Of a DNA stretch of 46,887 bases, positions 1,696 to 45,372 are shown in pieces. The notes beneath the pieces are model-generated. The model had not been told where the DNA came from and ran no database searches. It was given only the letters and a program-made list of their open reading frames with translations. Origin of the DNA: a virus; IMG/VR virus record IMGVR_UViG_3300042554_002321, positions 1 to 46,887 of that record; one strand, written 5' to 3'. The position numbers and the translations under genes are program-made. The first letter of the stretch is position 1, and each line of letters starts with the position of its first letter.

Positions 1696-3219
1696 ATGCC
1701 TAGTCGGGAAACTTTTGCGTATCGCCGTGGGGCACAATTACGAGCACTGAAAGCAATAGAAAACAACGAGAGTAACGTTACAGAAACTATTTATACCAAG
1801 GCTTCTAACGACTTCCATACTTTCTGTACGCTATTAGATAAGCCGCCGGCGCCTCATATGCTGGAATGGCACGAGCACTTGGTGACTAATGAAAGCAATA
1901 AATACTTATTAGATATTGCAGGACCTAACCTTGATATTCTGGCACCGAGGGGTTCGGCCAAGTCGACCGTACTCAACATGTTTACTGCATGGTGTATAGG
2001 ACGGCATACAACTACAAAACGCCCATTGCAGATTATTTATGTGAGTTACAACATTGCGACTGCGATTCCTAAGTCGCGCATTATTCGTCAGATCGTCGAT
2101 TCTTCGGAGTTTCGCAAGATCTTTCCGACGTGCAGGCTGAAACCTGGGATGCAGTCGGACATCGGTTGGTCAATCGACTACGACTACGCCGGGATCCCTA
2201 GGCTCGGTGATGAAGAATTTACTCTAAGAGCAGCAGGACTGCGAGGTAGTATTACGAGTAAAAGGGCGCATCTGGTACTAATTGATGACCCTATAAAATC
2301 ATCAGCAGATATTAAGAACCCTACGATTAGAGAAGAAATGAATAACAACTGGAGTAGCGTTATAGCTCCTATTGTATTTGAGGGCGGTCGGTCTATTTGT
2401 CTAGGCACCCGATTTCATCCGTTAGACATCCACAAGACGATGTTTGTGCCGGAGAAGGGATGGAAACAGGTTACGCAGGAGGCTTTGACCTACGACGATA
2501 AAGGGCAGCCGAAAAGTTACTGGCAAAATCAATGGTCTGTTGATTACTTGCTGCAGCAGAAAGAGCTGGATCCAGTTGCGTTCTGTTTTCAGTATCAGCA
2601 ACAGCCCGTGGCTACGTCGGATCTGGTTGTATCCCCGGATCTGCTAATTAAAGGGGATGTCGCTACAGAATTTGACAGCCTGGCGCTCGGTATCGACTTG
2701 TCCGCCAGTAAAAACGAGACCTCTGATTACACTGCTTTCGTTTTAGGGGGAAGATTAAAAGATAAGTACTATATCGTTGATGCTCATCAGTGTCGTTCTA
2801 TCGGAAATCTTGAGAAGATAGATCTATTGTGCGATATGTTGCTGGAATGGGGCATCTTAACTAAGTACAACGGAGAATATCAGCCGACGTATTCCACGGT
2901 GACCCTCGTGGTTGAGTCTGTTGCCTATCAGGCGAGTCTTGCTGCCGACTTACGACGGGTGCTTCTGAATGAGCGAGGTTTGAGCAACCTGCATATTCAC
3001 GAAGTTAAAGGATTCAGGGGCGACAAGATCGCCCGCTTCCGAGGCACCTTGGGTCTCCTGGAGAACCAGAAAGTGGTTTTTAACAAATATCGCAAGTTCG
3101 ACGCGTTGTTCGATCAGCTTATTAACGTAGGTGCTACTGCGCATGACGACTTACTGGACGCGTACACTTGGTTAATTACATTTTTACAGCGTCGGGGCAG
3201 TTTTTCAGTTGAGTACTGA
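1696..3219 (+). CDS. terL: Terminase large subunit (packaging ATPase/nuclease)
   Basis: This 507-residue protein powers DNA entry into the prohead and cuts the concatemer. The ATPase domain has a Walker A variant APRGSAKST (residues 83-91) and a Walker B LVLIDD (193-198). The C-terminal RNase H-like nuclease has acidic positions in LGIDLSASKNETSDYTAF (D334, D344), a VVES strand near 405, and DDLLDAYTW near 490. Length and domain order match phage large terminases. It starts at ATG after a divergent gap; its stop at 3217-3219 is 1 nt from the next gene. No small terminase subunit was recognised nearby; one of the small genes at 4.1-5.8 kb could do that job, but there is no direct evidence. Confidence 0.93.
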   Translation: MPSRETFAYRRGAQLRALKAIENNESNVTETIYTKASNDFHTFCTLLDKPPAPHMLEWHEHLVTNESNKYLLDIAGPNLDILAPRGSAKSTVLNMFTAWCIGRHTTTKRPLQIIYVSYNIATAIPKSRIIRQIVDSSEFRKIFPTCRLKPGMQSDIGWSIDYDYAGIPRLGDEEFTLRAAGLRGSITSKRAHLVLIDDPIKSSADIKNPTIREEMNNNWSSVIAPIVFEGGRSICLGTRFHPLDIHKTMFVPEKGWKQVTQEALTYDDKGQPKSYWQNQWSVDYLLQQKELDPVAFCFQYQQQPVATSDLVVSPDLLIKGDVATEFDSLALGIDLSASKNETSDYTAFVLGGRLKDKYYIVDAHQCRSIGNLEKIDLLCDMLLEWGILTKYNGEYQPTYSTVTLVVESVAYQASLAADLRRVLLNERGLSNLHIHEVKGFRGDKIARFRGTLGLLENQKVVFNKYRKFDALFDQLINVGATAHDDLLDAYTWLITFLQRRGSFSVEY

Positions 3220-6762: not shown

Positions 6763-9003
6763 ATGCCTGCAGATCTTTTAAGCGTCCGGGGACGATTCAG
6801 TGAGATTCTGGAGGCAGCTCGGACTCAGGACCGCTCAAAGCAGTCCGCCACGATGGTGGTACTGAGTCATGTGCAGCAGATGACCCTTCTTATGATCAAG
6901 AAGGGTCTGTTTTTTTACTGTGAACAGGATACGTATAAAGCTCGTAGTGAGTTTCTAGATGATCTGATAAAACTTAATAAACTTGATATCCGTTTCCCGG
7001 CTATCGTTCGGAATTTTTTGATTGACGGTTCGGGTCTTTTCTATTTCAGGCCCGATCCCAAGCTGAAGTACCAGATTTACTTTTTTAACAAAAACCAGTA
7101 TCGGGTTTACCACGATCTCAACGGAGAGATCGAAGAGGTCGTAATCCTTTATTCCTACAAAGTTAAGAACGGTAACTTAGGGCTGCCTTCGAATACTTAC
7201 GGGCAGAACAAAAGGTATGTCCGTATCTCGATTACGGCCGAGATGATCACAGAGTACGAAGCCGACACGGAGCTGAGTTTTGACTTAGAGCCGGGCTCTG
7301 TCATTACTCCCCGAAACAGTCGGCCAAATACGCTGGGGTTTATCCCCGCCGTGGAGGTTCTGAATAAGCCAAACGCCAGCGGTACTGAAGGCGAAGGTGA
7401 ATTCGAGCCGTTCATGCAGCAGATCGTTCTGCATGATCAGATGATGCAGAATATCGCCAAGAACATCGAGTTCTTTGGTAATCCGACTCTGATCAGTTCG
7501 CGTCCGCGTAGTGATCTGGTGGAGGCGAGTGATACCGATCGTAACTTCCGTCCGACGATCAGCAGTCAAAGCGGATTTGGCGGTTTAGATTCTCCTTCCA
7601 CGAGGGTTTCAGATCCGTTTGGGTCGCAGTCTGGTATCGGGGGTCTTCGAGTTCCTCGAATTATTGCCAACGTAGAGCCGTCGGATCGGGTTGGTTACAT
7701 GACTCCTGACCCCGTAAACGGGGACATGAATCGATATGCGTTGTTACTACGAGAAGAAATTCGAACCGCACTCGGCGGCGTTGACGAAATATCGATTAGC
7801 GCCGGTGCCACTGCGACGGAAATTAAGGGCCTTATGGGTCGTGCTCAAGCGACTGCTCTTCGTAAAAATAAGAGTTTTTTGAGCTACGGCTTCTGCCGAT
7901 TGCTGGAGATGATTATTTATCACCAGGAGCAGATTTTCCGCGAGAGTTTTATTTCTGTCATGGGTTTGACTCCTCCCAAGGAGCCGAAAGAAGAAACTCC
8001 GGAAGCAGCGGAGCGTTATCAAAAGAAGCTGGCTAAGTACGAGCAGGATGTAGATCTTGCTATTCAAACGGCCCTCTCTGAAAACAAAGTACCTGGTGGA
8101 GTTTTTGGTCTTCCGCCAGACGGAGATAGAGAAGTAACGTATCGATTCCAAGGCGATGTTTATGAAGACACCGCTTACGACATCAACCAGAAATCGATCG
8201 TTGTTCGAAATCTTCAGGAGCTAGGTGTTGACAGCGTGGAAGCGCTGCGTTACTTGTTCCCGGATAAAAGTGATTTAGAACGAGCGGAAATGTTGAAGGG
8301 TTTCCCCTTCAGAATGATTCAACAAACGCAAGCCGCACTACAAAATTTCCTGCTAACATTAAATCAGCTGATGCAGTCGCCGCACCCTCTTGCGCCGACC
8401 CAGCCCTTAGCGGCAGATCCGAGGTTAAATATAACGCCTCTCCTCTACCGCACATTCGATCACCTCGCGCAAGAACTAACCTACTCGGGCAGCTATGAGC
8501 CAAGCGATCCCAGCTTCGACCCCGAGCCCGGTCTCCCCGGCAGTAGCGGCGCCCCAGGCGGCCTTCTCCCCGGATATGGGCTCAACCGTCTACCCTCAGT
8601 GGGTGGCGCAAACCCCTACCCCGGCGGTAGCTTCGGCAACTACAGCCCAAGCGCCGTCGCCGGCACAACTGGCTACGGTCCCTTCTATCAACAGCCAGTC
8701 CAGCCAGTTTCCGTCAGCCTCCTCCCCGAGCAACCCATGGGAGGCAGCGCTGGGCAGCCTGGACCGGATCGTCTCCCGGCTCTCCCCGTCCCTCAGCCAG
8801 ACAGCATCGTTAGCGCAGCCCCAGGTAGCGGCGCCGGATATTCAACAGAGCAATCTGGCTTTACAGGCCCAACAGCCCTGGGCTTACCAACCCCCTACGG
8901 TTCAGCCGACCTTATCCAACAGCGTCTATACGACCCCAATTTCCTCGCCGACTTCTACGGCGCAGGAGCCGCAGTTAAGCCAAGCAAGCGCCGCCGTCGT
9001 TAA
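6763..9003 (+). CDS. Portal protein with long Pro/Gly-rich C-terminal extension
   Basis: A 746-residue portal, the dodecameric channel at the head vertex. Supporting features are position after terminase and before scaffold/capsid, an N-terminal helical region (residues 1-60), the beta-rich clip/wing region (QIYFFNKNQYRVYHDLNGEI near 110) and a long helix with the ISAGATATEIKGLMGRAQAT motif near 345-365 that fits the portal stem/crown. Residues from about 578 onward are low-complexity Pro, Gly and Ser ending in KPSKRRRR; this whole tail is encoded by the same DNA as the first 169 codons of the next gene in another frame. Family portals rarely need this tail, so it may be a by-product of, or constrained by, the overlap. 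Confidence 0.85.
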   Translation: MPADLLSVRGRFSEILEAARTQDRSKQSATMVVLSHVQQMTLLMIKKGLFFYCEQDTYKARSEFLDDLIKLNKLDIRFPAIVRNFLIDGSGLFYFRPDPKLKYQIYFFNKNQYRVYHDLNGEIEEVVILYSYKVKNGNLGLPSNTYGQNKRYVRISITAEMITEYEADTELSFDLEPGSVITPRNSRPNTLGFIPAVEVLNKPNASGTEGEGEFEPFMQQIVLHDQMMQNIAKNIEFFGNPTLISSRPRSDLVEASDTDRNFRPTISSQSGFGGLDSPSTRVSDPFGSQSGIGGLRVPRIIANVEPSDRVGYMTPDPVNGDMNRYALLLREEIRTALGGVDEISISAGATATEIKGLMGRAQATALRKNKSFLSYGFCRLLEMIIYHQEQIFRESFISVMGLTPPKEPKEETPEAAERYQKKLAKYEQDVDLAIQTALSENKVPGGVFGLPPDGDREVTYRFQGDVYEDTAYDINQKSIVVRNLQELGVDSVEALRYLFPDKSDLERAEMLKGFPFRMIQQTQAALQNFLLTLNQLMQSPHPLAPTQPLAADPRLNITPLLYRTFDHLAQELTYSGSYEPSDPSFDPEPGLPGSSGAPGGLLPGYGLNRLPSVGGANPYPGGSFGNYSPSAVAGTTGYGPFYQQPVQPVSVSLLPEQPMGGSAGQPGPDRLPALPVPQPDSIVSAAPGSGAGYSTEQSGFTGPTALGLPTPYGSADLIQQRLYDPNFLADFYGAGAAVKPSKRRRR

Positions 9004-10699: not shown

Positions 10700-10779
10700 C
10701 GCTAAGAATGAGACAAAGGTCTTTTAATCTGTTGATTCTCTAGTTAGATTACGTATGTAGTTCTTCGGAGGTTGGCGCT

Positions 10780-10871
10780 TTGTTCGTCGACAATGATTTT
10801 CCGAAGCTGCTCGGCGCAGAGCTCTACCGTCCGCACCCAGCGTACGTTGTAGAGATGGCTGCAGAGCCGGT
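10780..10871 (+). CDS. Major capsid protein, exon 1 (TTG start)
   Basis: This short exon encodes about 31 residues: FVDNDFPKLLGAELYRPH, then PAYVVEMAAEPV. No ATG is in frame after the upstream stop at 10741-10743, but GGAGG (10767-10771) sits eight bases before the TTG at 10780, a good Shine-Dalgarno. The reading frame runs into the intron and stops at TGA 10918-10920. Joining nucleotide 10871 to 11997 gives EMAAEPV-VVHDFSKQPG, an uninterrupted frame into the capsid body. Exon 1 ends in U as group I introns require. A conventional gene call would miss this exon and begin the capsid at 12136. Confidence 0.78.
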
Positions 10872-11996
10872 TGACAATCCAGCCGCCTCTCTGAGTAATC
10901 GGAGAGTGAAAACCCGGTGAATTGCTGGAAACCCTTCTTAAAAGCTTCAAACCCTACAACGTAGCTGGCGACGGCAAGCGTGAATGGTTAAAAAGTTTGA
11001 AGTCTGGGGCAATCAGCAGCCAAGCCTCTCAGGAATGAGTGGAAGGTTCATCGACTAGGACATACGATCCAGACCGGATTATGAAGTCCACTAGCGCCGG
11101 GGCTCCCAGTATTGTTCGTAAGCTTTAAGCTTTCGCTCAATACCTAGACTACATCCTCCGTAAATAGCCTGTATGGCTTTTGCGTCCCTGATGTAACCAG
11201 GAATAGAATACAAATCTTTTCCTGTTTTAGTTACTTCTGATTTAATCGGAAGACTTAAACCACTAACATCGAGGATCCAAGTCTGAAGCTGGTAAGCAAA
11301 CTCAAGAGAAGCCGTGGTGACTTTAAATCGACGTTCTGTAACGGATCCGTCGCCGTCCCACACTCCTCTTAAAAAGTCCTTTTTAAACTCACGGAGGTCA
11401 CAAGAAAGTTTTAAAGTGTGGGATTTGTTAGGTGTTATGCCTAACTTAATTAAATCCTCCACCATGAACTTTTTGCTAAGAACTAAAATTTTTTGAGGGG
11501 CATGTTCCTTTCCATTAGTTTTAGGAATCTTTGTCTTAAGTTCAGGAGCACCTTCACCTAAGAACTTTCTAAACTGCTCTAAAATGTTACAGTCTTGTTC
11601 TTTTAGAGCTATCCTCGCTGCTGTTAATCTAGGACTTATGTTTCCATCTGCCGCTAACAAACCTAGAAAGTAAGCTTTATCGGGTGTATCAATGACCTCA
11701 AAATAGCGGTCATTGTACTCCATAAAAGAGTAAGTCTCTCCTGATTTTCTCTTGCGTTTACCGGTTTGTTCAAAGTAAGATGGAATACCTAGTTTCTTCC
11801 TGGCTTTATAAAAAGTCACCATCGTAACGCCTAGAACTTTCGCTGCTTCAACATCTGGCATTTTTGAAGCCAGTTCTTGAACAACAGAAAAGTCTGGATC
11901 AAAACGTTCGAAACGTGGCATTGGGAGCAAGATATAGTCAGTGCCCTAGGGATGAGAAATCTAGGGAACGGATTCGGACTCAAGAATCCTAGCACG
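10872..11996 (+). ncRNA. Group I self-splicing intron in the capsid gene
   Basis: All four conserved core elements are visible in order. P is GAATTGCTGGAAA (10919-10931), Q is CAATCAGCAGCC (11010-11021), R contains GGTTCATCGACTAGG (11045-11059) and S contains GAAGTCCA (11083-11090). P4 pairs TGCTG (10923-10927) with CAGCA (11014-11018); P7 pairs GACT (11053-11056) with AGTC (11085-11088); P8 is ATCC/GGAT. The exon end GAGCCGGU can pair with GCCGCCUC (10882-10889) as P1 with one mismatch and the required final U-G. Near the 3' end CCCTAG/CTAGGG (11944-11949, 11961-11966) forms a P9-type hairpin. The 3' boundary after G11996 is inferred from frame. The endonuclease gene fills the P8/P9 side on the opposite strand. 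Confidence 0.85.
11091..11930 (-). CDS. LAGLIDADG homing endonuclease, antisense inside the capsid intron
   Basis: 279 residues. Two LAGLIDADG helices are clear: AYFLGLLAADG (residues 86-96) and FLRGVWDGDG (186-195), each ending in the catalytic acid. The N-terminal 60 residues carry a helix-turn-helix (DVEAAKVLGVTMVTFYKARK) that may help DNA recognition. Such enzymes cut intron-less alleles and drive intron spread. The gene runs opposite to the capsid gene, so it must be expressed from its own leftward promoter; its stop codon touches the S element of the intron core. An alternative start is the ATG at 11921. Confidence 0.92.
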   Translation of the reverse strand: MLPMPRFERFDPDFSVVQELASKMPDVEAAKVLGVTMVTFYKARKKLGIPSYFEQTGKRKRKSGETYSFMEYNDRYFEVIDTPDKAYFLGLLAADGNISPRLTAARIALKEQDCNILEQFRKFLGEGAPELKTKIPKTNGKEHAPQKILVLSKKFMVEDLIKLGITPNKSHTLKLSCDLREFKKDFLRGVWDGDGSVTERRFKVTTASLEFAYQLQTWILDVSGLSLPIKSEVTKTGKDLYSIPGYIRDAKAIQAIYGGCSLGIERKLKAYEQYWEPRR

Positions 11997-13020
11997 TGTT
12001 GTTCACGACTTTTCAAAACAGCCTGGCCAGACCGTTCAGCTTGATCGTTATCGCTTCTGGGGTAATCCCGGCAGCAAGGAATCCCGCGAGCGTACTGCAG
12101 AGCAGACCATTGGTACTGCTAACAGCCGCAACATCGTGAAGGACAAAGTGCTGGTGACTCTTAAGGAGTACACCGGTCCTGCTGATCCGTCCGATCCCAC
12201 TCAGCCGAGCACCTTTAAGATTGCTCGGGAAACCCTGATCACTGCACAGCGCCTGCTGCTGGACACCGGTAACCTCACCGCTTTCCACCAGTCCATCGGT
12301 TCGCTGACTCTGCTCGACGACTATCGTCGTTGGCGTGACCGGGTGTTCATTAACGAACTCCTGAAAGCAGTTTCTAAAGGCCAAGCTTCCGACACCCAAG
12401 GTGGTTACTACTACCCTGGCGATCTTGCCGTCGGCGCTCTGACCTACGCCAACGCCGAACAAGCCAAGTTCGACGTTAAGGACGACCTGCTCCGCGTGGT
12501 GAAGAGCCTGCGTAAGCGTAACGTTCCTACTTATCAGGACGGTTTCTATCGCTGTGTTTGCGATCCTACCTTCCTGATGCACCTGCGTCAGAACAGCGAC
12601 TTCCGTGAAGTGGCTCGTTATCCTGGCAACGGTCAGATCAACCCCCTCATGTCCGGTATGCAGCCCAACGCTGCTATCTACATGGGTCAGGGCTTTGGTC
12701 AAGCCAGCTTTGTGGCTGGTGAGCCCATCATGCCCACCGGTTTCGTGTTCGAAGGCGTTCGCTTCTTCGAATCGACCAACATGCCCTCTCAGAGTCAGAC
12801 TGCCACCATCGGCGGCACATCGAAGTCTTACGAGAGTGCAATCGGTATGTTCTTCGGTCCCCAGAGCGTGGGCGTCGGTATCGGCGGCAACAACGCTCAG
12901 GTGCTTCTGAATAACAACGACGACTTCAGCCGTTTTATCATGATGATTTGGAGCCTGTACGCAGGTTTCGAACTTCTGAACGCTGATTTCGCCACCGTTG
13001 CTTACTCCTTTAACGCTTGA
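11997..13020 (+). CDS. Major capsid protein, exon 2 (HK97-fold, N4-gp56-like)
   Basis: Exon 2 begins in frame with exon 1 and gives a spliced protein of 371 residues. The frame is open back to 11965, well before the first ATG at 12136, and the extra residues (VHDFSKQPGQTVQLDRYRFW) look like authentic capsid sequence. Later segments such as YRCVCDPTFLMHLRQNSDF and REVARYPGNGQINPLMSGM resemble N4-gp56-like/HK97-fold capsid proteins. Codon use is strongly biased toward C/G-ending codons, as expected for the most abundant virion protein. It assembles the shell around the scaffold. The next gene follows with a strong ribosome-binding site. Confidence 0.87.
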
Positions 13021-42002: not shown

Positions 42003-42620
42003 TTATATCATGTTTTTCCAAGGGTCGTCTGTGTTTTCCGGCGCCCGGTTATTTTTTTGGAACAGTTCTTTAGCAACCTCTGCGGCACGCGGAACAAAAT
42101 TACGCGCTTGCGTGGCGGCTGTAAGCGTCTGGATCTGGCCGCTCATAATCTGAATTTGTTGTTTTAGTACAGCATTCTCCCTAAATACTTCGTCAGTTTG
42201 ATTATCCGCCCATGCTTTGGCGTTCAGCGTGAGCTGTGTCAGTATTTGTGAAGGATGATCAAAGGAGTAAACAGCTCCCATTGGGGTGTCCACGCGTTGC
42301 CCGCCGTTCTGCGTTGAAATCAAACTCTCCAACAGTTTTTCCGCTTGCGGTAATTCGAGCTCTGCGTGGAAAGCTAGTTGCTGCGGAGAAACTAGACCTT
42401 TGAAGTTTTCGTAGCAAAAGCTCAGCGCTTTCGAAACTTTTGCTGCTCGTTCAGCTTCTTCCTTTTCCCTGTCTTTCTTGCTGCCGATCAGGCTTGCAGT
42501 TACCAGCGAGCCTCCGGCAGCAGCCCCAAACACAGGAAAAGTTCCTGGTTGCATCGCAATCGAACCGAGCGCTAGCCCGAAGCCGGCGCATGTAGCGATC
42601 AGAGTTTTATTGATCGGCAT
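42003..42620 (-). CDS. Membrane protein with helical C-terminus
   Basis: 205 residues from ATG at 42620, 14 nt inside the end of the primase-helicase gene. Two hydrophobic segments (TLIATCAGFGLALGSIAM; FGAAAGGSLVTASLI) anchor it in the membrane. The rest is charged and helical (DREKEEAERAAKVSKALSFC; LVSPQQLAFHAELELPQAEK), the latter winged-helix-like. The ending (ENTDDPWKNMI) is acidic. It may place or regulate replication at the membrane; the function is unknown. Confidence 0.6.
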   Translation of the reverse strand: MPINKTLIATCAGFGLALGSIAMQPGTFPVFGAAAGGSLVTASLIGSKKDREKEEAERAAKVSKALSFCYENFKGLVSPQQLAFHAELELPQAEKLLESLISTQNGGQRVDTPMGAVYSFDHPSQILTQLTLNAKAWADNQTDEVFRENAVLKQQIQIMSGQIQTLTAATQARNFVPRAAEVAKELFQKNNRAPENTDDPWKNMI

Positions 42621-45372
42621 TTGATGGTTTTGGGTCGTGTTCCGTAAACGCCTTGTCCCAGACGTTGGGGTTTGCAGCAAAGTCTACCGGTGACGGCAGT
42701 CGATTATCACCCCGGTTACGCGGATCCGTGGTCGGATCATAGGGCTTGATTACGAGTCCTTGAATGACAGCTTTGCCATTTATGAATTTAGACTGCACGC
42801 CGGGTACTTTCAACACGTTGTTTGTTGTCTCGCGCAGACGGTCCACGAAGCGGGGCTTGGCAATCGTCCTGAAACCGTTGCACTTGGCGAAGTTGCAATA
42901 GCTCGCATACACTTCTGTGAATGCGTTTTTAACGTACAGACCCTTCTCCTGCTCGTCGATGTTCGGTTTAAGGGCACCAGCACCAAGCACGGTATAGGAG
43001 TTTGGTGCGTACATAGTGCACTCAGCCAGCCAAGCCACGATCGGATTGTTGAAGATCAGAGCTTCGATGTTCGTCGTGTTCAGCGTGGGAGCGAACTTGG
43101 TCGGGTTGGCCAGCACTTCACGCATTTGATCGTGTCCCATGCTCAGCGCCCAGGCTGCAATGTTCGGTAACTCCGGAGCAAACTCACCCTCGATGTGATC
43201 GGGATACACGCTGATCAAGTTCTTGCGCTTCGAGGGGTTGATGACGTTGTTCATCACGATCGTGAGGCGCCGGCGCTCCAGACCACTACTGATGTCCGAG
43301 CTGCTGATGTGCTCGTTCGATGCGATTGAAACGAGGAGCTCGGGTTTGAAGTTGATCACCTCTTTGCCGTACTTCCGTTCGGCCCGCAGCGTGTCGCTGG
43401 CGGACGTCAGCTTTTTGAGGGTGTCCAGGCGGCGGCTAAACGAAGCTTCGTCGGTCAGTAGCAAGAGCCGCTTTCCGATCAAGCTGTGCCCTTCGAATCG
43501 GTTGGTTTCAATCGTCTCCAGGTCGGACGTATGCGTGCCCGTGTAGCCCGCCAGCGCAATCAAAACCTGTTGCAGCGTGGATTTACCGGAGCCACCGGCA
43601 CCGATCAGGTGGAGGAAGCGCTCGCCCGTTGCGTAACCGACAAAGACAGCCCGACAGAATGCCTGGATAATGACGACGTTATCTTTTCCTACTGCCCAAC
43701 TCAGCCAGCTCAGGAATTTCGGGCAGTTGGTGTCTTCGCTGAAATCAAAACCGAGGCGGCTGCGGAAGTACAGATCGCGCTGAAAACCGTCGGCAAAATC
43801 CAGGGTCTCCACGTCCAGAACGCCATTTCGGAATGCCACCTTGCCTCGGTTGGAAGTCCAGATGGACTTACGTCCGCCCTTAATGGAGCGAAGAAGACGG
43901 GCTTTCAGCAACAGGAAAATGCTGTTGACGGTTCCGCTGTTGTAGCGTTGCAGAATGCCGGTCTGCACAAACGTATCTAGAGCTTTAAGGATGCGCCGTT
44001 TGATATGCTGCTCGTCGCTCAGGAACCAGATCCCTTCCTCGTCGTCGTAGCTAAAGAATTCGTCGAGAGAGGAGTCGTACAGGAACTGATCGCCGTAGTT
44101 GCTGGAGATAACTTCGGCAATGTCGTTCTCGCTGAACGCACGGTCGTTGTTTTGCAGGTTGATCAGTTGTGCAGGAGTCTGCGGCGTGGCAACCATGGGC
44201 TCTTCGTCGGGTGTTTTTGTGGATGTTGATGTTGTTTTGGGCGACGGCTCGCTAGTCAGATCGAAGTCGTCGATTGAAAGCACAGAGTTTTTTGGTTGTG
44301 CTTTTTTTGCTTTGATCCGATCCTTGACGGAGTCGGGACACTGCTCTGCGAATACGGAACGGTTTGCGTATTTAACTTTTTTCCAGCACGCCACTTCGGC
44401 ATCTTCTGCCACGATGGCCGCTGCTGGTCGGAGGCTCGTCGCGTCTGCGATCGAGTTCAGGATGCGGTTGAACTTGCCGTCTAGCTCTGGGGCGTACTCG
44501 TAGATAGAGTAGAACAGACGGTGCGCAACGTCAAGGGGGGCCTCCGTCAGGGTGACGTTATGACCGTTGCACCAGTTAGCCCAGCCGATGATTTCCTTGA
44601 GACCGATTGCCATGGCTAGGCTCCGGTCTTCGACCGCCTCGCCGTGCAGCATGTTCTGGACGGATTTGCTAAGCAACAGATCAAGCTGGCATCCGTCCGC
44701 CTCTAGGGGGCAATCCAGTGCTTCGTGAGCGTCATGCTTGATCGAAGCGTCTCGCGGCAGCGTGGAAAATACTCGGGCTCCTTCATCGATTTGCCAGGTA
44801 GGGATAAATTTGTCTGTTGTACAGATCAAATCCTGCGGGCCACGACCGCCGTAGAACAGGTTGACGGTCTGTGTCGCACGCTTGTCTGAGCCGGGAATCT
44901 GTACGGCGATTTGCCGTACAAACCACTGGTAGAAATCTGGTTGTACGATGTCTCGTTCGAGTCCAAAAACGAGACGGAACCTGGGCCAATCGGGTGTGTT
45001 GCTCGGGGAATAATACGCAAACGAGAGGTACTTCTTACATATATCTAATTCAAGTGCTTGTTCAACTGTTAACTGAATGTCCTTTATCTTTTCTCCGTTC
45101 TCGTCTTTACCGTCTGCCTGATTGTCAATATCGATGATAACCAAACCGGCTTTTATGAATCCGGTGTCTCCGCTTTTGCGTCTGCCTTCAATCAGCTGTG
45201 CTGCACACAGACCGGAACCTACCGCAATTCGATTCGCGATGACTTCTGTCGAGTTGCTGGATGCTTTCCAGTTTTCGTTAAAGGCAGCAAAGTTACCGCC
45301 CGATGCTATCTTTCCGGTCTTCGGATTTAGATATTCGCGAACTTCGTCGTTGATCGAATAACTAAATTCCAT
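42607..45372 (-). CDS. Primase-helicase: AEP-type primase fused to D5/SF3 helicase
   Basis: 921 residues. The N-terminal archaeo-eukaryotic primase domain has LVIIDIDNQ (D81, D83 metal site), WPRFRLVFGL (129-138) and DKRATQTVNLFYGG (163-176), with a short basic linker rich in Ser/Thr near 370-390. The C-terminal helicase has Walker A GAGGSGKST (591-599), Walker B RLLLLTDEA (635-643), the SF3 sensor motif SIASNEH (N686) and an arginine finger in GLERRRLTI (about 700). This is the replicative initiation and unwinding protein, acting at the fork. It heads the reverse-strand cluster apart from the nuclease and small genes upstream. Confidence 0.9.
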   Translation of the reverse strand: MEFSYSINDEVREYLNPKTGKIASGGNFAAFNENWKASSNSTEVIANRIAVGSGLCAAQLIEGRRKSGDTGFIKAGLVIIDIDNQADGKDENGEKIKDIQLTVEQALELDICKKYLSFAYYSPSNTPDWPRFRLVFGLERDIVQPDFYQWFVRQIAVQIPGSDKRATQTVNLFYGGRGPQDLICTTDKFIPTWQIDEGARVFSTLPRDASIKHDAHEALDCPLEADGCQLDLLLSKSVQNMLHGEAVEDRSLAMAIGLKEIIGWANWCNGHNVTLTEAPLDVAHRLFYSIYEYAPELDGKFNRILNSIADATSLRPAAAIVAEDAEVACWKKVKYANRSVFAEQCPDSVKDRIKAKKAQPKNSVLSIDDFDLTSEPSPKTTSTSTKTPDEEPMVATPQTPAQLINLQNNDRAFSENDIAEVISSNYGDQFLYDSSLDEFFSYDDEEGIWFLSDEQHIKRRILKALDTFVQTGILQRYNSGTVNSIFLLLKARLLRSIKGGRKSIWTSNRGKVAFRNGVLDVETLDFADGFQRDLYFRSRLGFDFSEDTNCPKFLSWLSWAVGKDNVVIIQAFCRAVFVGYATGERFLHLIGAGGSGKSTLQQVLIALAGYTGTHTSDLETIETNRFEGHSLIGKRLLLLTDEASFSRRLDTLKKLTSASDTLRAERKYGKEVINFKPELLVSIASNEHISSSDISSGLERRRLTIVMNNVINPSKRKNLISVYPDHIEGEFAPELPNIAAWALSMGHDQMREVLANPTKFAPTLNTTNIEALIFNNPIVAWLAECTMYAPNSYTVLGAGALKPNIDEQEKGLYVKNAFTEVYASYCNFAKCNGFRTIAKPRFVDRLRETTNNVLKVPGVQSKFINGKAVIQGLVIKPYDPTTDPRNRGDNRLPSPVDFAANPNVWDKAFTEHDPKPSNADQ

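Follow-up and report, generated by a model that had tools for sequence, protein, structure and literature searches.

The window analysed here, that is the whole 46,887-nucleotide stretch of the IMG/VR virus record IMGVR_UViG_3300042554_002321, carries on its plus strand a capsid gene in two exons, and the 1125 nt between these exons hold a homing endonuclease gene (HEG) on the opposite strand. The features of the locus are the following:

1696-3219: terminase, upstream of the capsid gene
6763-9003: portal-like gene, upstream of the capsid gene
10767-10771, plus strand: Shine-Dalgarno GGAGG of the capsid gene, read from the sequence
10780-10871, plus strand: capsid exon 1, 30 codons and 2 nt with a TTG start, uninterrupted in intronless relatives
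10872-11996, plus strand: group I intron, 1125 nt, from Rfam RF00028, empty-site comparison and covarying structure
11091-11921, minus strand: LAGLIDADG_3 homing endonuclease gene, 276 codons, antisense to the intron, in the P8 region
11997-13020, plus strand: capsid exon 2, from splice joining, comparison with relatives and the PHROG profile
Expected ligated exon junction, plus strand: ...GAGCCGGT/TGTTGTTCAC..., predicted from the splice-site placement

An initial annotation, made from the letters of the DNA alone, had proposed that a capsid gene with a 31-codon first exon (10780-10871, TTG start with GGAGG) is joined to a second exon at 11997-13020 by removal of a 1125-nt intron. Indeed, the two exons once joined translate into a continuous 371-aa protein, the position of the start codon is kept in relatives as TTG, ATG or GTG, and intronless relatives read through the first exon, which bears out its extent. 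A splice scan requiring a U at the end of the 5' exon and a G at the end of the intron gives a single solution, after nucleotide 92 of the capsid coding sequence (hereafter site 92), and relatives in IMG/VR encode the same capsid protein without interruption through this very point. Compared with one of them, the intronless L002, the window shows 98.1% identity from 11998 on and 93.5% up to 10871, and the two L002 blocks that flank the junction are adjacent with no insert, which makes L002 an exact empty site. Splice scan and empty site hence agree with the intron length and boundaries first proposed. Since the L002 blocks adjoin, exon 1 corresponds to real coding sequence in the relatives, and nearly all the changes in it relative to the window are silent. 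Intron presence is patchy among near-identical phages.

The capsid assignment of the initial annotation is likewise upheld. The intronless L002 homologue matches the profile PHROG 1357 'major head protein' with an E-value of 8.6e-23 and the gene follows the terminase and portal-like genes; on this profile and gene-order basis the split gene is assigned as the major capsid gene. A PDB profile search with the capsid protein returned no relative by sequence, and an AlphaFold model built on a 29-row alignment (pLDDT 28.8) was too poor for use on the fold. The nearest isolate relative of the capsid protein is that of cyanophage S-EIV1 (65.9% over exon 2), and the virus belongs to an S-EIV1-like freshwater cyanophage lineage. 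The capsid gene of isolate S-EIV1 is intronless, and to our knowledge there is no cultured intron-bearing phage of this lineage. The intact S-EIV1 gene, with a GTG start, lies at 60859-61986 of KJ410740.1 (L001:4767-5894), where the record shows over it, in place of one gene, smaller hypothetical ORFs, one on the minus strand and a short one on the plus strand. Elsewhere in the window, at 42607-45372 on the minus strand, a 921-aa D5_N/DUF5906 primase-helicase-like protein is encoded; the structural genes are on the other strand.

Ribozyme fold and the antisense endonuclease gene

The covariance search proposed with the initial annotation was performed using the Rfam group I model. RF00028 matches 10913-11101 on the plus strand with 43.7 bits (E-value of 1.8e-9 in a local scan and 5.5e-8 over the whole window), a score below the 50-bit gathering score, and the endonuclease ORF splits P8 and P7; the outcome named as a refutation of the initial annotation, no group I hit, was not obtained. 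At E <= 0.05 the same RF00028 scan found no other group I intron in the 46.9-kb window. Eleven distinct introns were collected at site 92, among which that of L308 is 318 nt long, lacks a HEG and scores above the gathering score (76.4 bits, E-value of 1.3e-17); its P8 is a plain short GCTCC/GGAGC hairpin.

A structure model was fitted to seven distinct site-92 sequences after removal of the endonuclease ORF from the introns. It comprises P1, P2, P3, P4, P5, P6, P7, P7.1, P7.2, P8, P9 and P9.1, with 98.2% of the pair cells standard, a percentage that is not independent by itself because the model was partly derived from the same sequences. In this structure 22 pairs are changed on both sides, and none of 500 shuffles was as good. 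P3, P4, P7 and P8 are 100% paired in the seven introns, with a P3/P7 pseudoknot around P8; P3, P4 and P7 give no covariation of their own because they are invariant in the site-92 introns. The elements are placed as follows, all on the plus strand:

10868-10885: P1, CGGU/UG (slash, splice site) pairs with the guide CAGCCG, with a U.G wobble at the splice site; 6 of 6 pairs invariant in seven introns
10887-10906: P2, two pairs changed on both sides
10913-11101: P3-P6 core, from RF00028 and the structure model
10913-10918/11096-11101: P3, from the structure model
10918-10920: UGA at which the exon-1 frame stops if the intron is retained, 15 codons past the exon; product of the unspliced RNA 46 aa
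10923-10928/11013-11018: P4, from the structure model
10932-10934/11006-11008: P5, from the structure model
11019-11047: P6, from the structure model
11053-11057: P7 5' strand (element R, GACTA), pairs with 11935-11939
11058-11089: P7.1/P7.2 between P7 and P3', two P7.1 pairs changed on both sides
11102-11107: P8 5' strand GCTCCC, pairs with 11923-11928; the loop holds most of the endonuclease gene
11923-11928: P8 3' strand, from the structure model
11935-11939: P7 3' strand (element S, TAGTC), from the structure model
11944-11966: P9, 5 of 6 pairs changed on both sides
11970-11989: P9.1, the least certain helix, 74% of cells paired

The P, Q, R and S elements, the P4, P7 and P8 pairings and the 5'-exon U listed in the initial annotation are thus all present. 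P7.1 and P7.2 lying between P7 and P3' are typical of subgroup IA, and their placement here points to this subgroup for the window intron. Taken together, 10872-11996 is, as read from its sequence and covarying fold, a group I intron predicted to be self-splicing.

The endonuclease ORF fills most of the intron and its 3' end overlaps the P3' strand and the P8 5' strand. Its product matches PF14528 (E-value of 3.5e-12, 46.8 bits against a cut-off of 22.5) as well as the endonuclease family PHROG 4645 (E-value of 6.3e-38), and displays two LAGLIDADG motifs with acidic residues, FLGLLAADGN and FLRGVWDGDGS. The frame is open in all 10 HEG-bearing genotypes of site 92. Pairwise dN/dS of the HEG ranges from 0.08 to 0.28 over 15 pairs, indicating purifying selection, and on account of these values the antisense gene is maintained as a protein. 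In a collection-wide scan, close relatives of this antisense LAGLIDADG_3 HEG were found at six loci, only at site 92. Given that the gene is opposite to the capsid mRNA, its product would have to come from an antisense transcript; a simple scan found no sigma-70-like promoter for it, and no clear Shine-Dalgarno was seen.

Insertion sites in related capsid genes

Capsid introns in related contigs lie after coding nucleotides 8, 12, 57, 64, 92, 107, 109, 111, 144, 154, 233, 265 and 321. Each of the 13 sites has a solution with a U before the intron and a G at its end, and all fall within the first 321 of 1113 coding nucleotides (5' 29%). Every site has one or more representatives matched by RF00028; the top match per site has an E-value below about 3e-5, and the weakest matches are ORF-interrupted. 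A single gene may carry up to three introns, as in L026 (8, 154 and 233) and L276 (111, 265 and 321). Sense LAGLIDADG_2 endonucleases occur at sites 64, 107, 109, 111, 144, 154, 233 and 265, an antisense LAGLIDADG_3 gene at site 92 and an antisense HNH_3 gene at site 12. When the alignment of the sense HEGs was queried over IMG/VR, all 79 loci found (79/79) were located within this capsid gene.

Since earlier capsid queries disfavoured intron-bearing genes, ranking down those with introns after codon 78 or with an intron anywhere, scans anchored on the C-terminus were used to estimate intron frequency. These found introns in 21 of the 72 complete capsid genes of the window's clade (29%) and, among newly fetched loci, in 18 of 62 complete genes of the S-EIV1-like clade (29%), the latter figure counting as site 12 six 'other' rows whose sequence is the end of the site-12 intron; both samples consist of the loci most similar to each query with some contigs recurring, so that the percentages hold for those sets. 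No intron past about codon 108 was found in either C-terminus-anchored sample. Under uniform placement, the probability that 13 of 13 sites fall within the first 321 of 1113 nt is about 1e-7; it is 1e-6 when only highly conserved codons are allowed and 1e-5 to 7e-5 with nine merged zones. As the values stay between 1e-7 and 7e-5, the 5' confinement is not explained by sequence conservation alone. We also looked for contigs resembling spliced cDNA. For the interior sites, the agreement between an intronless locus and an intron-bearing junction did not exceed 77 of 80 nt. The comparison is uninformative for site 12, whose local sequence occurs in many intronless alleles.

Several individual sites deserve description. 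At site 12 (L103:3180-4003 and about 25 other S-EIV1-like genotypes) a group I intron of about 825 nt with the antisense HNH_3 gene follows only four codons, for example GTG TTC ATT GAT, and versions of 256-281 nt lack the HEG. The site-8 introns (L026:4163-4528 and L043:4502-4828) begin 8 nt into the coding sequence, hence the Shine-Dalgarno and the start codon are split from nearly the whole gene. L003 (site 107), L059 (site 109) and L276/L278 (site 111) have introns at three sites spaced 2 nt apart; the L003 and L059 endonucleases share 87% identity, which suggests that a single intron type moved its insertion point and P1 pairing by 2 nt. In the L392 capsid gene (codons 36-108) two or more interruptions are present, one of them an insert of HEG size close to codon 108, in the region of site 321.

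Mobility and competing explanations

Outside a stretch that reaches some 200 bp upstream and 100 bp downstream from the insertion, L002 shows 94-100% identity with the window, save two bins of 90% far upstream. Inside this stretch, identity falls to 48-86% in the 200 bp upstream and to 74-78% in the 100 bp downstream. Such a pattern of flank divergence suggests a co-conversion-like scar left by recent homing, although ordinary recombination or intron loss in L002 could also account for it. Furthermore, the divergence of the HEG and that of the capsid gene do not follow each other: between the window and L083/L084 dS is 0.22-0.30 for the HEG and 0.52-0.94 for the capsid gene (0.22 against 0.52 for L083), while between the window and L030 it is 0.90 for the HEG and 0.63 for the capsid gene. 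A disagreement in both directions fits the expectation for horizontal transfer. On these sequence comparisons the site-92 intron is probably mobile.

Just upstream of the insertion, at about 150 bp, L003 has the haplotype of the window, and the introns of the window and L003 are at sites 92 and 107 respectively. This suggests repeated exchange at the insertion spot. It also speaks for a region that is exchanged anyway, and thus for a reading in which the scar and the patchy introns would be due to phages recombining generally across the capsid region, with the introns as hitchhikers and not as drivers. We consider this unlikely, given that the L002 divergence is confined to about 300 bp around the site, as break repair predicts, and that the endonuclease genes are kept functional. 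Still less probable is a fixed intron passed on by vertical descent, a passenger which splices and no longer homes, the antisense ORF being a relic. Intron and HEG do sit at the same site in capsid genes down to 69% identity (L087), and in L087 the two are about equally diverged; yet the low HEG dN/dS, the two-way dS discordance, the recent-looking scar against L002 and the patchy distribution among near-identical phages all argue against this passenger state. Finally, translation of the capsid from the internal GTG at 12136, which opens a 294-aa ORF and would leave exon 1 as a dead fragment with no splicing, is very improbable, as the proteins of intronless relatives begin at the same upstream start and run on without a break for 371-376 aa, the first 80 codons retain their amino acids while silent sites diverge, and compensatory changes maintain the ribozyme structure.

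We therefore favour, with a probability of roughly 0.92, a group I intron with a homing endonuclease, inserted after nucleotide 92 of the capsid gene, in a history of splicing, homing and repeated colonisation. According to this model, the pre-mRNA would fold into P1-P9, guanosine would attack after the U at 10871 and the exons would be ligated into an mRNA for the 371-aa capsid protein. Because the UGA at 10918-10920 comes at the margin of P3, ahead of P4-P7, translation should not run through the ribozyme core. The antisense LAGLIDADG enzyme would cleave the uninterrupted capsid genes of relatives in the same infected cell, close to where the intron inserts, and break repair would copy in the intron plus flanking sequence, about 200 bp from upstream and 100 bp from downstream. 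Within the lineage, the same capsid gene has been colonised repeatedly, as the 13 sites show, by introns with three endonuclease types; those endonuclease genes that run antisense belong to two families unrelated to each other, LAGLIDADG_3 and HNH. As for the 5' confinement, we conjecture that early introns are plausibly those best shielded from translating ribosomes, or else that the endonucleases act as weapons against co-infecting relatives.

Known systems and significance

The initial annotation considered an intron in a capsid gene a striking case, since the most abundant late product depends on splicing; this is only partly right. A single capsid intron is not new in kind, as the major capsid gene of mycobacteriophage LittleE (gp13/gp14, JF937101) is also interrupted by a group I intron, whose opposite strand carries a LAGLIDADG-type gene, and there splicing was proven by RT-PCR and N-terminal sequencing (PMC3706429). 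A group I intron in the capsid gene of lactococcal phage Tuc2009 is cited in the same paper (PMC3706429). More unusual are the antisense endonuclease and the colonisation of many sites, neither of which the initial annotation had brought up. The LittleE intron matches RF00028 with 30.7 bits; it differs from the present case in that phage and host are unrelated, that it is one intron in one of six genomes and not a many-site radiation, and that its endonuclease is about 177 aa long against 276 aa in the window, with no significant similarity between the two.

Among other systems, gp210 of Phi-PA3 is a phage intron endonuclease that acts on a co-infecting relative and thus serves as a model for the window enzyme; however, it is of the HNH type and nicks the PhiKZ gp178 gene, and is not a LAGLIDADG enzyme in a capsid intron (PMC11620839). 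Jug phages carry many group I introns in essential genes, with splicing backed by metatranscriptomes, but these are spread over many genes of huge genomes, whereas here one gene has 13 sites (PMC12363816). Antisense as well as sense HEGs recur in the L2066 group I introns as described in PMC9548176, although these belong to eukaryotic nuclear rDNA and encode His-Cys endonucleases with spliceosomal introns. In a literature search covering mainly openly accessible journals, neither a single phage gene with introns at so many sites nor introns in this cyanophage lineage came up. What appears to be new here is the multi-site colonisation of the capsid gene with recurrent antisense endonucleases. 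We give about even odds to the parallel that the capsid gene is to these phages what cox1 is to mitochondria, an essential gene in which group I introns have settled again and again.

The capsid gene is an unusual landing strip for probably mobile introns in the S-EIV1-like lineage. Such genes are easily split or missed by gene callers, as in the S-EIV1 record. If splicing takes place as predicted, the capsid of a widespread freshwater phage lineage would be ribozyme-dependent in about 29% of the complete genes sampled. Given that near-identical phages differ in intron presence, site and endonuclease, the lineage constitutes a natural experiment on homing and on competition between co-infecting phages, and equally on how an endonuclease gene placed antisense within the loop of a ribozyme is expressed and on the reason for the 5' confinement.
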